From positions 1 through 64,000 of the forward strand of contig NZ_JACCCY010000002.1 in the NCBI RefSeq assembly GCF_013409575.1: 64,000 bases of DNA, written 5' to 3'. A program made the translations under genes and the position numbers. This DNA is from Macellibacteroides fermentans (GTDB lineage: Bacteria; Bacteroidota; Bacteroidia; Bacteroidales; Tannerellaceae). This document shows, one piece after another, positions 53,563-59,750 of this stretch. Under the pieces are notes generated by a model that had not been told where the DNA came from, did no database searches, and saw nothing but the letters and a program-made list of their open reading frames with translations. The stretch's first letter is position 1. Every line of letters starts with the position of its first letter.

Positions 53563-53593
53563 TTTGTAAGAACAAAATATTGTTCTACATTTG
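53563..53593 (+). promoter_or_regulatory. ilv operon promoter (-33 and -7 boxes)
   Basis: TTTG (53563-53566), a 19-nt spacer, then TACATTTG (53586-53593) is a full Bacteroidetes-type promoter. The predicted start falls near 53599, about 25 nt before the leader-peptide ATG. Confidence 0.8.
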
Positions 53594-53624
53594 CGCCATC
53601 GTAATATAGATTAAAAAGCGAAAT

Positions 53625-53687
53625 ATGATTAACAGCATTCTACATAGCATTATTCTCGTGGTGGTTCTTCTAGTCATTAGAAGATAA
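53625..53687 (+). CDS. ilv leader peptide (attenuator control ORF)
   Basis: This 20-codon ORF (stop 53685-53687) contains ten consecutive Ile/Leu/Val codons (IILVVVLLVI at residues 9-18) and 13 Ile/Leu/Val residues in all. It lies between a strong promoter and a terminator ahead of ilvD, the classical layout in which ribosome stalling on scarce charged tRNA controls antitermination. It is too short for ordinary gene calls. No protein function is implied beyond being translated. Confidence 0.88.
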   Translation: MINSILHSIILVVVLLVIRR

Positions 53688-53760
53688 GAGAAAGGTGTGT
53701 AAAGAATTGCGTGTTGTAAGAAATTCTTAAAGCCTTTCTCCGTTGAGAAGGGCTTTTTTT
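53688..53760 (+). terminator. ilv attenuator: antiterminator and terminator
   Basis: The terminator is AAAGCCTTTCTC (53729-53740) paired with GAGAAGGGCTTT (53745-53756; one G-T pair) around CGTT, followed by a T run to 53760. The antiterminator is GAGAAAGG (53688-53695), directly after the leader stop, complementary to CCTTTCTC (53733-53740), the left arm of the terminator. An upstream alternative pairs TCTTCTA (53666-53672) with TAGAAGA (53678-53684) and TTCTC (53653-53657) with GAGAA (53688-53692), which would sequester the antiterminator when the leader is not blocked by a ribosome. Confidence 0.85.
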
Positions 53761-53791: not shown

Positions 53792-55624
53792 ATGAAAAAT
53801 CAATTAAGAAGTTCATATAGTACTCAGGGCCGCAGAATGGCTGGAGCACGGGCCTTATGGCGTGCCAATGGTGTGAAAGAAGAGCAATTTGGCAAACCAA
53901 TTATCGCAGTTGTCAATTCATTTACCCAATTTGTACCTGGTCACGCCCACCTGCATGAAATTGGTCAGCAGGTAAAAAAGCGGATCGAAGCATTGGGCTG
54001 CTTTGCTGCCGAATTCAACACCATCGCCATAGACGACGGAATCGCTATGGGACACGACGGGATGTTGTATTCCCTTCCTTCCAGAGACATCATTGCAGAT
54101 AGTGTGGAGTATATGGTTAATGCCCACAAGGCCGATGCCATGATCTGCATCAGCAATTGCGATAAAATTACTCCGGGTATGCTGATGGCCACCATGCGGC
54201 TGAATATCCCAACCATCTTTGTGTCCGGCGGACCAATGGAGGCGGGCGAGCTGGATGGTCAGGCGTTAGACCTGATCGATGCCATGGCAGATGCAGTGGA
54301 CGAGACCGTGAGCGACGAACGGGTAAAACGAGTGGAACATGCCGCTTGTCCCACCTGCGGAAGCTGCTCGGGTATGTTTACCGCCAACTCCATGAACTGC
54401 CTCAACGAGGCACTTGGACTGGCACTGCCGGGTAACGGCACCGTTGTGGCAACCCATGCAAACCGGAAACGATTATTTGAAGATGCGGCCGATCTGATTG
54501 TAGAGATGGCCTATAAATATTACCGCGATGGAGATGCAACGGTATTACCCCGTTCCATTGCGACACGTACGGCATTCTTAAACTCCATGGCGCTGGATAT
54601 AGCGATGGGAGGATCAACCAACACAGTATTGCACCTTTTGGCTATCGCCCACGAGGCTGAGGTGGACTTCACCATGAAAGACATCGATGCCTTGTCGCGT
54701 ACAACACCGGTTATATGTAAGGTAGCTCCCAGTTCGTCGTACCATGTTCAAGACGTAAACCGTGCTGGAGGAATTATGGCCATCATGCAGGAGCTTATAA
54801 AGGCCGGTCTGGTGGATGGCAACGTACACCGTGCCGACGGACGAACATTGAGCGAAGCCGTGGAGGCGTTGAGCATAACCAAAGCCAATCCCGATCCTAA
54901 GGCTGTAGATCTGTACAAGAGCGCTCCGGCAGGAAAATTCAACCTGGTAATGGGTTCTCAATCTTCTTCCTATAAGACATTGGATACCGACCGCCAGCAG
55001 GGATGCATCCGCGATGTGGAGCATGCCTATGTAAAAGATGGCGGATTGGCCGTGTTGTACGGAAACATTGCCGAAGGCGGATGTGTTGTAAAAACAGCCG
55101 GTGTAGATCCCAGCATATTTAAATTCAACGGACCAGCCAAAGTATTTGATTCGCAGGATGCCGCTTGCGAGGGTATTTTAAGAAATCAGGTAGTGGCCGG
55201 CGATGTGGTGGTGATAACCTACGAAGGGCCCAAAGGCGGACCGGGTATGCAGGAGATGCTTTATCCTACCACCTATATAAAAGCAAGACATTTAGGAAAA
55301 GAGTGTGCGCTGATAACCGACGGACGTTTTAGCGGAGGAACCTCCGGCTTGTCCATCGGCCATATCTCTCCCGAAGCTGCGGCAGGCGGAGCGATTGGAC
55401 TGGTTCGTAACGGCGACACGATCGAAATCAATATCCCCGAACGATCCATTCGGGTAAAACTATCAGACGAAGAGCTGGCAGCACGCAGAAATGAGGAGGA
55501 GGCACGCGGCCCCAAAGCCTTTACACCGCCTGCTCGTCAGCGTACGGTATCCAAGGCTTTACGAGCCTATGCTAAAATGGTAAGCTCCGCCGATCAGGGA
55601 GCGGTTCGAATTGTAGAAGATTAA
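53792..55624 (+). CDS. ilvD: Dihydroxy-acid dehydratase
   Basis: This 610-residue Fe-S dehydratase makes the 2-keto acid precursors of valine and isoleucine. It shows [15 protein letters not shown] (cluster Cys), [34 protein letters not shown] and [22 protein letters not shown]. It is the first structural gene of the operon, 31 nt after the attenuator T run, so its expression should follow leader translation. Confidence 0.96.
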
Positions 55625-55652
55625 AAACGCAGAACAAAGAAGCTATAATGGT

Positions 55653-57356
55653 ATGGAGACAAAAAAAATAACCGGATCGGAAGCCTTTTTGCGCACATTG
55701 ATTGCCGAAGGCGTTGATACTATTTTCGGGTATCCCGGGGGGGCTATTATTCCAGTATATGATTGCTTGTATGATTTCAGAGATCAGATAAGACATATTT
55801 TGGTGAGACACGAACAAGGGGCGACCCACGCAGCCCAGGGCTATGCCCGTGTGAATGGCAAAGTGGGCGTAGCGATGGTAACCAGCGGTCCGGCTGCAAC
55901 CAATGCCATAACAGGTATTGCAGACGCCATGATGGACAGCACACCGATTGTAGTTATCACCGGTCAGGTTGCCTCACCTTTGTTGGGAACCGATGCGTTC
56001 CAGGAGACAGATGTGGTAGGTATTACACAACCTATAACCAAATGGTCGTATCAGATACGCAAACCCGAAGAGATTGCCTGGGCTATTTCAAGGGCATTCT
56101 ATATTGCATCGACAGGCCGTCCGGGTCCGGTTGTAATCGACTTTGCCAAAGATGCACAGAATGCATTGGTAGACTATACCTACGAAAAGGTAGATTACAT
56201 CCGCAGCTATCAGCCTGTTCCCGACCTGGATATGGACCTGATTGCCGAAGCGGCTGAGCTGATCAACAATGCAAAGAAACCCTTTGCACTGGTAGGACAG
56301 GGCGTTGTGCTTGGTCATGCTGAAAAAGAGTTGATGACATTCCTGCAGAAGGCAGACATACCAGCTGCGGCAACTGTACTGGGGCTGTCGGCCATGCCTA
56401 CGGATTTCCCGCTTAATAAAGGGATGCTGGGTATGCACGGGAATGTTGGTCCGAATCGTAAAACAAACGAATGCGATGTGCTTATTGCTATCGGTATGCG
56501 TTTCGACGACCGGGTTACCGGCGATCTTAAAACCTATGCCAAACAGGCAAAAGTAATCCACTTTGATATTGATATTTCCGAAATAGGGAAGAATGTTATT
56601 CCCGCCGTGCCGGTGCCGGGCGACGCCAAGGAAACGCTGGCAGCCATCACCGAATTTGTAAAACCAGCCAAACACACCGATTGGGTAAATTCGTTTATCC
56701 CGGACGAGCAGGAGGAAGACGAAAAGGTAATTCAGGACGAGCTATATCCCAAATCAGGCAAATTGCGCATGGGCGAGGTTATCCGCAAGGTATCCGAAGC
56801 AACCAACAACGATGCGATTCTGGTTACCGATGTAGGTCAGAACCAGATGATGGCCGTTCGTTACTTCAAATACAAACAGACCCGCAGCGTGGTTACCAGC
56901 GGCGGACTAGGTACGATGGGATTCGGATTGCCTGCCGCCATAGGTGCCAAAGTGGGAGCACCCCACCGCGAAGTATGCATGTTTACCGGCGACGGAGGCA
57001 TGCAGATGACAATCCAGGAGCTGGGAACTATCATGCAGGAAAAGCTGAATGTTAAGATGATCATCCTGAATAACAATTTCCTCGGGATGGTACGTCAGTG
57101 GCAGGAGCTGTTCTATAAAGAGAGATATTCGGCAACCATTATGGAAAACCCCGATTTTGTGGCGATCGCCTCGGCTTACCGGATTGCAGCCCGCCAGGTT
57201 GAGAAACGCGAAGAGCTGGACGATGCCATCCACGAAATGCTTTCGCACGACGGACCCTACCTGCTGGTAGCCGAAGTGGAAGAGAGGGGCATGGTATATC
57301 CTATGGTTCCTGCGGGAGGTTGCGTTACGAATATAATCATGGGTGACAATCAATAA
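55653..57356 (+). CDS. ilvB: Acetolactate synthase large subunit
   Basis: This 567-residue TPP enzyme condenses pyruvate with pyruvate or 2-ketobutyrate. It has FGYPGGAIIPVYD, the catalytic-Glu region VRHEQGATHAAQGYAR, the FAD-domain GLGTMGFGLPAAIGAK, and the TPP/Mg motif GDGGMQMTIQELGTIMQEKLNVKMIILNNN. It lies 28 nt after ilvD and 15 nt before ilvN. Confidence 0.96.
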   Translation: METKKITGSEAFLRTLIAEGVDTIFGYPGGAIIPVYDCLYDFRDQIRHILVRHEQGATHAAQGYARVNGKVGVAMVTSGPAATNAITGIADAMMDSTPIVVITGQVASPLLGTDAFQETDVVGITQPITKWSYQIRKPEEIAWAISRAFYIASTGRPGPVVIDFAKDAQNALVDYTYEKVDYIRSYQPVPDLDMDLIAEAAELINNAKKPFALVGQGVVLGHAEKELMTFLQKADIPAAATVLGLSAMPTDFPLNKGMLGMHGNVGPNRKTNECDVLIAIGMRFDDRVTGDLKTYAKQAKVIHFDIDISEIGKNVIPAVPVPGDAKETLAAITEFVKPAKHTDWVNSFIPDEQEEDEKVIQDELYPKSGKLRMGEVIRKVSEATNNDAILVTDVGQNQMMAVRYFKYKQTRSVVTSGGLGTMGFGLPAAIGAKVGAPHREVCMFTGDGGMQMTIQELGTIMQEKLNVKMIILNNNFLGMVRQWQELFYKERYSATIMENPDFVAIASAYRIAARQVEKREELDDAIHEMLSHDGPYLLVAEVEERGMVYPMVPAGGCVTNIIMGDNQ

Positions 57357-57371
57357 TCGGGAGGAATTGCT

Positions 57372-57938
57372 ATGGCAGATAAAACATTATATACCGTTAC
57401 TATATTTTCTGAGAACACCGTGGGGTTGCTTAATCAGATTACGATTATCTTTACCCGCAGGCAGTTGAACATCGAAACATTGTCTGTATCCCCTTCGGCT
57501 TTGGAGGGTATCCATAAGTTCACAATCACCACGTTCTCGGACGAGTACACCATCGACAAGGTGGTTAAGCAGATCGATAAGCGGGTAGACATACTGAAGG
57601 CCTTTTACAATACCGACGAAGACCTTGTGTTTCAGGAAATCGCCCTGTATAAGCTAAGCACAGAGCTGTTCCTTAAAATGGGATCTGTAGAAGACCTGAT
57701 ACGCAAGCACAATGCCCGTATCCTGGAGATCAACGAGGTATGTGTCGTTTTGGAAAAAACCGGACATTATGCCGAAACAAAAGCCCTGTTTAAGGAGCTG
57801 AGCGAAATGATCGGCGTGTTGCAGTTTATCCGTTCGGGCAGAATTGCCATCAACAAGAGCAAAGTAGAACGGTTGAGCGACATGCTGGCCCTGATGGAAA
57901 AGAAAAAACAAGAAAAAGAGAAGGCAACGAATGAGTAA
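57372..57938 (+). CDS. ilvN: Acetolactate synthase small (regulatory) subunit
   Basis: This 188-residue ACT-domain protein (TLYTVTIFSENTVGLLNQITIIFTRRQLNIETLSV) has a C-terminal ALS small-subunit domain and a charged Lys/Glu tail. It binds IlvB and gives valine feedback control. Its 3' end overlaps the thioesterase gene by 8 nt, indicating translational coupling. Confidence 0.93.
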   Translation: MADKTLYTVTIFSENTVGLLNQITIIFTRRQLNIETLSVSPSALEGIHKFTITTFSDEYTIDKVVKQIDKRVDILKAFYNTDEDLVFQEIALYKLSTELFLKMGSVEDLIRKHNARILEINEVCVVLEKTGHYAETKALFKELSEMIGVLQFIRSGRIAINKSKVERLSDMLALMEKKKQEKEKATNE

Positions 57939-58665
57939 GATCGGAGAATTCCATTTTGTATCTGAATCCTATTTGCTCGATTTCAGAGGACGGGTAACCA
58001 TCCCGATGATGGGTAATTACCTGCTTCATGCCTCCAGCACCCATGCCGAACAAAGAGGCTTTGGCTTTAACGCCATGGCAAGTCAGGGATGTGCCTGGGT
58101 GCTTTCGAGGATGGTGATAGAGATGAAATCCTATCCCACCATGCTTCAGCCCTTCTCCATTACAACCTGGGTGGAAGATGCGAATAAACTCTTCACAAGC
58201 CGTTGCTTTGCCATCCGCAATGCAGAAGGCGAGGCGATGGGCTATTGCAGAACACTTTGGGCGGCCATCGATCTGGAGAGCCGTAAACCCACCGATTTGG
58301 CGCGCCTGGATAATAACCTGCATTCATTTATTGTGGACGAACCCTGTCCCATCGAAAAACCCGGTAAGATACAGGCGGCAGAGAAAGACACGGAGGGCGA
58401 ACCCTACAAGGTACGTTACAGCGACCTCGATGTGAACGGACATTTCAACAGCATCAAGTACATCGAGCACCTGCTGGATATGTTTGACCTGTCGATGTTT
58501 GCAGATAAAGAGGTGAGCCGTTTCGAGATTGCCTACATGGCAGAAGGAAAATACGGAATGGAAATGTTCCTTCATAAAAAAGAGATAGATCCCCTGCGGT
58601 ATGTAACCTCCATCTGCGATAAGGATGGAAAGGCGATATGCCGGGCGGAGATAACCTGGAAATAA
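57931..58665 (+). CDS. Acyl-ACP thioesterase (FatA/FatB-like)
   Basis: This 244-residue double hot-dog protein begins FHFVSESYLLDFRGRVTIPMMGNYLLHAS. It contains WVLSRMVIEMKSYPTMLQPFSITTWVED and the second-domain segment VRYSDLDVNGHFNSIKYIEHLLD, which carries the Asn/His catalytic pattern NGHxNs of acyl-ACP thioesterases. It would release fatty acids from ACP. Its place between ilvN and ilvC is notable; homologues occupy the same slot in Bacteroides, from memory. A link to branched-chain acyl groups is inference. Confidence 0.88.
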   Translation: MSKIGEFHFVSESYLLDFRGRVTIPMMGNYLLHASSTHAEQRGFGFNAMASQGCAWVLSRMVIEMKSYPTMLQPFSITTWVEDANKLFTSRCFAIRNAEGEAMGYCRTLWAAIDLESRKPTDLARLDNNLHSFIVDEPCPIEKPGKIQAAEKDTEGEPYKVRYSDLDVNGHFNSIKYIEHLLDMFDLSMFADKEVSRFEIAYMAEGKYGMEMFLHKKEIDPLRYVTSICDKDGKAICRAEITWK

Positions 58666-58703
58666 GAAATAAATTTGGTTTTTAATTTAAAAATAAAGAA
58701 AAC

Positions 58704-59750
58704 ATGGCAGTAATGAATTTTGGCGGTGTAGAAGAAAACGTAGTTACCCGCGAAGAATTTCCATTGGAAAAGGCAAGAGAAGTATTGAAAAATGAAACAA
58801 TCGCAATTATCGGTTACGGAGTTCAGGGTCCGGGTCAGAGTCTGAACCTGCGCGACAATGGCTTCAATGTAATTGTTGGTCAGCGTAAGGAATCAAAAAC
58901 ATGGGATAAAGCCGTAGCCGACGGATGGGTACCGGGCGAAACCCTTTTTGATATCGAAGAGGCATGTCAGAAAGCCACCATCATCCAGTATCTGCTTTCG
59001 GATGCCGCTCAGATCGAGGTCTGGCCAACTGTAAAGAAGCACCTTACTCCGGGCAAGGCCTTGTATTTTTCTCACGGATTCGCCATCACTTACAAGGAAC
59101 GTACCGGAATCGTACCTCCTGCCGATGTGGATGTAATCCTGGTTGCTCCTAAAGGATCTGGAACAAGTCTGCGCCGTATGTTCCTTCAGGGACGCGGTCT
59201 GAATTCAAGCTACGCTATTTTCCAGGATGCTACCGGCCGTGCACACGACAGAGTAGTAGCTTTGGGTATCGGCGTTGGTTCGGGTTACCTGTTTGAAACC
59301 ACATTCAAACGCGAAGTATATTCAGATTTAACCGGCGAGCGCGGTACATTGATGGGTGCTATCCAGGGTATCTTTGCTGCACAGTACGAAACACTACGTG
59401 CCAACGGCCACACTCCATCCGAAGCATTCAACGAAACCGTAGAAGAACTTACCCAGAGCCTTATGCCTTTGGTAGCCGAAAACGGAATGGACTGGATGTA
59501 TGCCAACTGCTCTACAACTGCACAACGCGGTGCATTGGACTGGTGGAAAAAGTTCCGCGATGCAAGCAAGCCTGTATTTGAAGAACTTTACAGCGAAGTA
59601 GCTAAAGGAAACGAAGCACAACGCTCTATCGATACAAACAGCAAACCCGACTACCGCAAAGGTCTTGAAGAAGAATTGAAAGAACTTCGTGAAAGCGAAA
59701 TGTGGCAGGCTGGTATGGTAGTTCGTAAACTACGTCCGGAAAACAACTAA
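58704..59750 (+). CDS. ilvC: Ketol-acid reductoisomerase
   Basis: This 348-residue NAD(P)H enzyme converts acetolactate to dihydroxyisovalerate. It has the Rossmann motif IAIIGYGVQGPGQSLNLRDNG, the cofactor-specifying loop VGQRKESKTW, and VAPKGSGTSLRR. The C-terminal metal-binding knot includes DLTGERGTLMGAIQG and ETVEELTQSLMPL. It is the last gene of the ilv operon; a terminator follows at 59772-59809. Confidence 0.95.
   Translation: MAVMNFGGVEENVVTREEFPLEKAREVLKNETIAIIGYGVQGPGQSLNLRDNGFNVIVGQRKESKTWDKAVADGWVPGETLFDIEEACQKATIIQYLLSDAAQIEVWPTVKKHLTPGKALYFSHGFAITYKERTGIVPPADVDVILVAPKGSGTSLRRMFLQGRGLNSSYAIFQDATGRAHDRVVALGIGVGSGYLFETTFKREVYSDLTGERGTLMGAIQGIFAAQYETLRANGHTPSEAFNETVEELTQSLMPLVAENGMDWMYANCSTTAQRGALDWWKKFRDASKPVFEELYSEVAKGNEAQRSIDTNSKPDYRKGLEEELKELRESEMWQAGMVVRKLRPENN

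Follow-up and report, generated by a model that had tools for sequence, protein, structure and literature searches.

A probable ribosome-mediated attenuator ahead of the ilv operon of Macellibacteroides fermentans and its conservation among Bacteroidales

How might a member of the Bacteroidales adjust the synthesis of branched-chain amino acids to their supply? The 64-kb stretch of Macellibacteroides fermentans DNA analyzed here (the window) raises this question because a row of ilv genes on its forward strand is preceded by a short open reading frame (ORF) dense in isoleucine, leucine, and valine (ILV) codons and by a predicted intrinsic terminator. The row begins with ilvD (53792-55624), which encodes dihydroxy-acid dehydratase (NCBIfam TIGR00110 and NF009103, both over cut-off) and is the first gene of a putative operon, followed on the same strand by ilvB (55653-57356), ilvN (57372-57938), a gene for an acyl-ACP thioesterase (57931-58665; Pfam PF01643 and PF20791), and ilvC (58704-59750), with the three further ilv genes assigned through NCBIfam. 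The spacing of these genes suggests that all five (53792-59750) are co-transcribed. The thioesterase gene thus lies within the ilv row, sharing a few nucleotides with the 3′ end of ilvN and with ilvC as its next neighbor. A preliminary description had read the region ahead of ilvD as a ribosome-mediated attenuator, and on the sequence evidence set out below we are highly confident that it is a classical transcription attenuator of the ilv type.

The leader can be read from the sequence part by part, always on the forward strand. A putative Bacteroidetes-type promoter (53563-53593) is composed of TTTG at 53563-53566, a 19-nt spacer, and TACATTTG at 53586-53593. Behind it lies the leader peptide ORF of 20 codons, MINSILHSIILVVVLLVIRR (53625-53687, from the ATG at 53625 to the end of the TAA at 53687), which contains ten consecutive ILV codons at 53649-53678 (ATT ATT CTC GTG GTG GTT CTT CTA GTC ATT); no Shine-Dalgarno-like site was seen when the sequence before its start was inspected. 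Directly 3′ of the stop codon follows strand 2 (GAGAAAGGT, 53688-53696), which is supported by its pairing with strand 3 and by its spacing and whose first eight nucleotides (GAGAAAGG, 53688-53695) are the exact complement of CCTTTCTC at 53733-53740. The latter belongs to strand 3 (GCCTTTCTC, 53732-53740), which is common to the antiterminator and the terminator and is supported by sequence, alignment, and co-variation. The predicted intrinsic terminator itself (53729-53759) has a stem of 53729-53740 and 53745-53756 and then a T run, with a computed energy of -15.9 kcal/mol, and is kept in the alignment discussed below. Altogether, the 160-nt leader RNA folds better than its shuffles (z of -3.29; 1 of 200 shuffles as good). 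Promoter, 20-codon leader, ten ILV codons, complementary strands, and a terminator before ilvD are all where the preliminary description had placed them. Its further statement that all parts of classical attenuation are present holds for the parts that it named; it had left unnamed strand 1 of a putative protector hairpin, which probably lies inside the leader codons (53641-53657) according to RNAalifold, pairing counts, and an energy test.

If these parts act as their arrangement suggests, then RNA polymerase would start at around 53600, judging from the position of the promoter, and the leader peptide would be translated by a ribosome. With charged Ile, Leu, and Val tRNAs in ample supply, this ribosome would reach the stop codon and cover strand 2, so that the terminator helix between strands 3 and 4 forms and transcription ends before ilvD. 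Should any of the three amino acids run short, the ribosome would instead stall in the ten-codon run, and even at the last ILV codon its leading edge should just clear strand 2. The latter would then be free to pair with strand 3 as an antiterminator, and the polymerase would continue into ilvD-ilvB-ilvN-thioesterase-ilvC. If the leader were not translated at all, strand 1 would probably pair with strand 2 as a protector and the terminator would form, which is the least certain step of the proposed mechanism.

Among the relatives of the window, IlvD matches at 81% to a Tannerellaceae metagenome-assembled genome and at 90% in two genomes of the window's own genus, and the best named relatives are Tannerellaceae. 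Regarding the leader region, a Parabacteroides distasonis record covers 79% of it with an identity of 75% and likewise has ilvD as the next gene. The leader itself is without a gene entry in that record, and annotation may therefore well miss such leaders, in line with what the preliminary description had expected of the one studied here, though this is a single named record and its gene table is incomplete.

For a systematic comparison, we used a detector that requires a short ORF (8-45 codons) in which I, L, or V account for 7 or more of 10 residues, followed at a distance of 10-70 nt from the stop codon by a terminator. Within the window, it matches the leader site alone on the forward strand and one site on the reverse strand (51609), which lies inside a coding gene and is probably spurious. 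Upstream regions of ilvD were gathered in three sets (80 loci, 30 loci, and 19 stretches), from which we dropped 25 non-Bacteroidota loci by their titles, two copies of the window, one L107 duplicate, and L089 (identical to L001), as well as four loci with less than 300 nt upstream before counting. Leader and terminator are found in 71 of the resulting 97 Bacteroidota upstream regions (window included), with near-identical relatives kept so that these are not 71 independent events, while the detector matched only 1 of 1940 dinucleotide shuffles. The density of ILV residues reaches at least 8 of 10 in 61 of the 71 positive loci. As a control, 163 regions in front of other ORFs (250 aa or longer) in the Bacteroidota loci of the first set gave four matches (L009, L014, L019, and L048), all of which are ilvD's own leader and terminator seen via another in-frame start; with the same detector, leader and terminator were found at none of the other 159 upstream regions. 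This stricter rule took the place of a more permissive one (6 or more ILV residues out of 10 and a terminator within 90 nt), which had given 73 of 101 non-self loci, L089 included. Of the 69 loci with enough upstream DNA, 61 have the promoter motif TAnnTTTG no more than 75 nt ahead of the leader, compared to 5.7% of shuffled segments. Comparison with related ilvD upstream regions, which the preliminary description had called for, found the ILV-rich ORF, the switch helices, and the terminator conserved and did not show the absence from relatives that would have spoken against its reading.

The detector is negative in 26 of the 97 ilvD upstream regions, including eight titled Prevotella or Prevotellaceae, four of Bacteroidaceae from rumen or omasum, and four from the window's own family (L114, L116, L118, and L127). 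In L003, L020, and L079, the ILV-rich ORF is present and the terminator is absent by the detector rule. Outside the order, leader and terminator precede 4 of 20 ilvD-type genes, which had been hand-picked from 60 matching genomes. In more distant loci (L265, L266, L268, L269, and L270), the ilvD-type gene is preceded by an ORF in which ILV residues make up 8-9 of 10 and which has no terminator by rule; such terminator-less ILV-rich ORFs in distant genomes are possibly another form of leader control. The Labilibaculum sp. locus L046 has two ILV-rich leaders between approximately 350 and 50 nt before ilvD, MQFNSVIIISVIIRVLLDTIRG and MLSFKVVIIVIIISIVIIRM..., each with its own terminator, which from their sequences seem to be two attenuators in series, and one relative carries a tandem pair of ilvD-like stretches (G004:C5:1142110-1145686).

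Beyond the presence of the parts, an attenuator of this kind rests on the pairing of strand 2 at the end of the leader with strand 3, i.e., the left arm of the terminator. This helix is better than in shuffles (p≤0.05) in 59 of the 71 loci and not significant in the other 12, with strand 2 placed by the best helix, a choice that leans towards the attenuation model. For the 20 loci with arms that do not contain CCTTTCTC, pairing of strand 2 with its own arm averages 19.8 versus 14.3 with swapped arms (sd 0.81; permutation p 0.00005), and the own arm is the best or second best partner in 12 of these 20 loci.

Pairing was also assessed in an alignment, A1, of 24 hand-chosen sequences out of the 71 (the window with 21 further members of its family as well as L001 and L103) that excludes near-identical rows (e.g., L083 and L093) and divergent family members (e.g., L102, L108, and L111). 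In A1, 84% of the antiterminator cells are paired (98% for the 2:3 helix and 65% for the inner loop helix) compared to 44-62% in slid versions, and the terminator reaches 96% compared to 33-73%. No double-sided changes of the 2:3 helix occur within A1, and the co-variation of this helix therefore rests on the more distant loci. The computed energies are -15.9 kcal/mol for the terminator, -16.5 kcal/mol for the antiterminator stretch, and -13.7 kcal/mol for the protector stretch. For ribosome-free RNA of 53601-53742, folding yields the antiterminator and not the protector as the form of minimum energy, while a fold extended to 53760 gives protector plus terminator as the best form; computed energies of this kind do not decide the order in which the helices form in the cell.

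Evidence for a ribosome comes from the distance at which strand 2 is held. The start of the last ILV codon precedes that of strand 2 by a median of 12 nt (IQR 12-14, sd 2.4, n=59), with 9-17 nt in 55 of the 59 loci and a full range of 5-17 nt; in the window, the last ILV codon starts at 53676 and strand 2 at 53688, i.e., 12 nt further on. The distance of strand 2 to the stop codon is far more variable (sd 8.0, n=59). Eight loci even have a leader that is translated through strand 2, with its stop 11-26 nt past the start of this strand, and their ILV spacing still amounts to 9-16 nt. According to a passage of one study, the cover of a ribosome reaches up to 12 nt past the stop codon (PMC4833913). 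With a reach of about 12 nt, the ribosome would therefore just clear strand 2 when stalled at the last ILV codon and would cover this strand once it has arrived at the stop codon.

Codon usage is another feature that sets the leaders apart. GTC makes up 47.5% of their Val codons compared to 15.5% in ilvD of the same loci, and CTA makes up 22.1% of their Leu codons compared to 3.3% (58 loci); the values for 11 genes of the window are 2.8% for GTC and 2.6% for CTA. This bias may in part be of use to the protector. Taken together, the conserved ORF, helices, and terminator, the co-variation of the switch, and the footprint spacing in many Bacteroidales support the original reading of the locus in terms of ribosome-mediated attenuation.

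The protector hairpin is a more delicate matter. Across the 24 sequences, RNAalifold pairs UACAU at 53641-53645 with 53697-53701 and UUCUC at 53653-53657 with GAGAA at 53688-53692, along with a small inner hairpin. In A1, 97% of the protector cells are paired compared to 38-62% in slid versions, a figure that is biased towards the model because this structure was derived from A1 itself. Compensatory changes are seen at one pair from A-U to G-C (five sequences) and at another from C-G to U-A (four sequences), yet the count of protector pairs with double changes is not above that of shuffles, 137 of 500 of which reach it. In an energy test with strand 3 absent, the mean probability of strand 2 being unpaired is 0.23 for native leaders and 0.36 for synonymous recodings, and for 36% of the 59 loci the native value falls into the lowest tenth, while no locus has it in the highest. 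A contiguous 1:2 helix compared with synonymous recoding comes out at p≤0.05 in only 2 of 59 loci (median p 0.30). With two of three tests in favor, a protector strand inside the leader codons is likely on balance, and the energy test and the alignment point to a bulged form.

A pair of terminator and antiterminator is compatible with any attenuator, and a real switch of this kind might also be thrown by a protein, a small molecule, or a T-box-like uncharged tRNA with the ORF as a by-product. We consider this improbable because no Rfam family at all, T-box and riboswitch families included, reaches its gathering threshold in the whole window and because the ILV-rich ORF stays in frame, with two gap sites of 3 nt each inside the leader in A1 and gaps of 1-6 nt after the stop. 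The enrichment of GTC and CTA, the closer tie of strand 2 to the last ILV codon than to the stop, and the existence of sister operons having leaders with their own cognate codons (see below) speak against such a switch as well.

An ORF that is conserved in frame could also encode a functional small hydrophobic protein, e.g., a membrane peptide or a type I toxin, with the terminator being simply the end of its gene. The peptide is indeed hydrophobic and its order LH-IILVVVLLVI is well preserved in the window's family, but the leader peptides of other Bacteroidales are dissimilar, with ILV content as their main common trait, and the preserved Leu-His codons fall in strand 1. Considering also that the terminator arm co-varies with the strand at the leader's end and that the detector is negative at 159 other genes, this explanation appears very improbable to us. 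The least credible of the explanations, to which we give almost no weight, is that the locus primarily makes a promoter-proximal small RNA, i.e., that the terminated leader acts in trans and attenuation is secondary. It would find some backing in weak Rfam matches of the same stretch to GibS (24.6 bits, threshold 115) and BTnc231 (16.9 bits, threshold 80.4), but with E-values of 0.2 and 0.34 these are far under threshold and stand among 16 sub-threshold matches mostly to unrelated families. We have discarded both as evidence; an additional role of the leader in trans, besides attenuation by a translating ribosome, is still conceivable.

Seen from its sequence and that of its relatives, the element is real and conserved and very probably a working attenuator of classical design with an ordinary mechanism. 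At the level of architecture, it resembles the leaders of enterobacterial ilvGMEDA and ilvBN in its ILV-dense leader peptide, alternative helices, intrinsic terminator, and downstream biosynthetic operon. It differs from them in belonging to another phylum, in its Bacteroidetes-type promoter, in the lack of a Shine-Dalgarno-like site, and in the operon order of ilvD-ilvB-ilvN-thioesterase-ilvC. Outside Proteobacteria, leader ORFs or hairpins before an ilv operon are described for the ilvBNC attenuator of Corynebacterium (PMC10272879, PMC11857589), an actinobacterial system.

A close relative in kind within the phylum is Bacteroid-trp (RF01692), which comes from Weinberg et al. 2010 (PMC2864571) and is described by Rfam as a tryptophan peptide leader. 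It is likewise a predicted leader-peptide cis-regulatory RNA in Bacteroidetes, with Trp codons and another sequence, and the ilv leader matches it neither at threshold nor among the matches at E 10. Passages of a 2021 transcriptome study of Flavobacterium psychrophilum (PMC9723704) report strong indications that leader peptides attenuate amino acid operons; these concern the same phylum and the same type of operon in a flavobacterial species, though these passages name no operon and hold no analysis of co-variation or spacing. A 2020 map of Bacteroides thetaiotaomicron mentions small ORFs reminiscent of leader peptides (PMC7366714). The view of the preliminary description that such attenuation is rare in accounts of this phylum is therefore apt in that it has hardly been studied there and too strong in that the kind is already known through RF01692 and PMC9723704, as far as could be seen by prediction only. 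Among the matches listed in open-licence literature, titles and the starts of abstracts name no ilv attenuator in Bacteroidota. The group of Lopatovskaya et al. 2010 and Lyubetsky et al. 2007 reportedly predicted attenuators widely and may therefore have priority for Bacteroidota. The locus offers a concrete and testable candidate for how a major gut phylum controls the synthesis of branched-chain amino acids.

Similar leaders precede other amino acid operons, in the window's own genome those of hisG, trpB, leuA, and pheA. Each sister gene was sought in 20 genomes, with loci mainly being those over the family's cut-off, and we examined 16 of 17 hisG, 14 of 30 trpB, 17 of 30 leuA, and 15 of 16 pheA loci with thresholds of 4 H, 2 W, 6 L/I, or 5 F/Y of 10 residues. 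Leader and terminator with cognate codons are present in 13 of 16 loci for hisG (MKLNTMHHHHHHYNGQ in the window's genome), 11 of 14 for trpB (NTYWWRF), 12 of 17 for leuA (SIIIISLIDILLWERTRK), and 12 of 15 for pheA (FSFTYSFYYFYFSR), all of these being counts without a shuffle control. A significant strand 2 (p≤0.05) is present in 10 of 13 hisG, 11 of 12 leuA, and 11 of 12 pheA leaders and in none of the 11 trpB leaders. Counted from the start of the last sensor codon, it begins after 13-15 nt for pheA (10 of 12), 16-19 nt for leuA (10 of 12), and 18-23 nt for hisG (12 of 13), i.e., the spacing is at least that of the footprint and has no single fixed value. The GCCTTTCTCAC arm that is also found before ilvD recurs in 9 of 12 leuA terminators. 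When the leaders of the window's own genome were compared to Rfam (E 0.1), only that of trpB matched, namely to Bacteroid-trp RF01692 with 73.1 bits (threshold 49) at L172 2725-2856 on the reverse strand.

With ilv, leu, his, phe, and trp leaders in one genome and strand 2 of the ilv leaders at footprint distance from the sensor codons, we think it likely that leader-peptide attenuation is the standard and old form of control of Bacteroidales amino acid operons. If this is true, transcription and translation would have to be tightly coupled, at least on the leaders, in a phylum that initiates translation largely without Shine-Dalgarno pairing. To our knowledge, such coupling has been little studied in this phylum. 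The ilv leader and its sisters could serve as a ready assay of it in bacteria that are not known to rely on Shine-Dalgarno sites and, more generally, as a useful starting point for work on coupling and on amino acid control in this order.

The region upstream of thrA looks different. No ilv-type leader with a T-run terminator was found in 12 stretches, and another element was seen there, comprising a short ORF (...AYYTWALMTPWGV... in L243, L245, and L248) with an inverted repeat resembling GACCCCCTGGGGGG that is built from its Thr-Pro-Trp-Gly codons. Comparison of L239, L243, and L246 to Rfam at E 0.1 gave no match. The pattern of ORF and inverted repeat is matched by 4 of the 12 stretches, and the element lies at approximately 195-306 in L243, 160-232 in L245, 159-219 in L246, and 298-355 in L248. 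In the window's own genome (L239, approximately 96-150, reverse complement), a variant can be recognized by eye in which the ORF stops inside the repeat.
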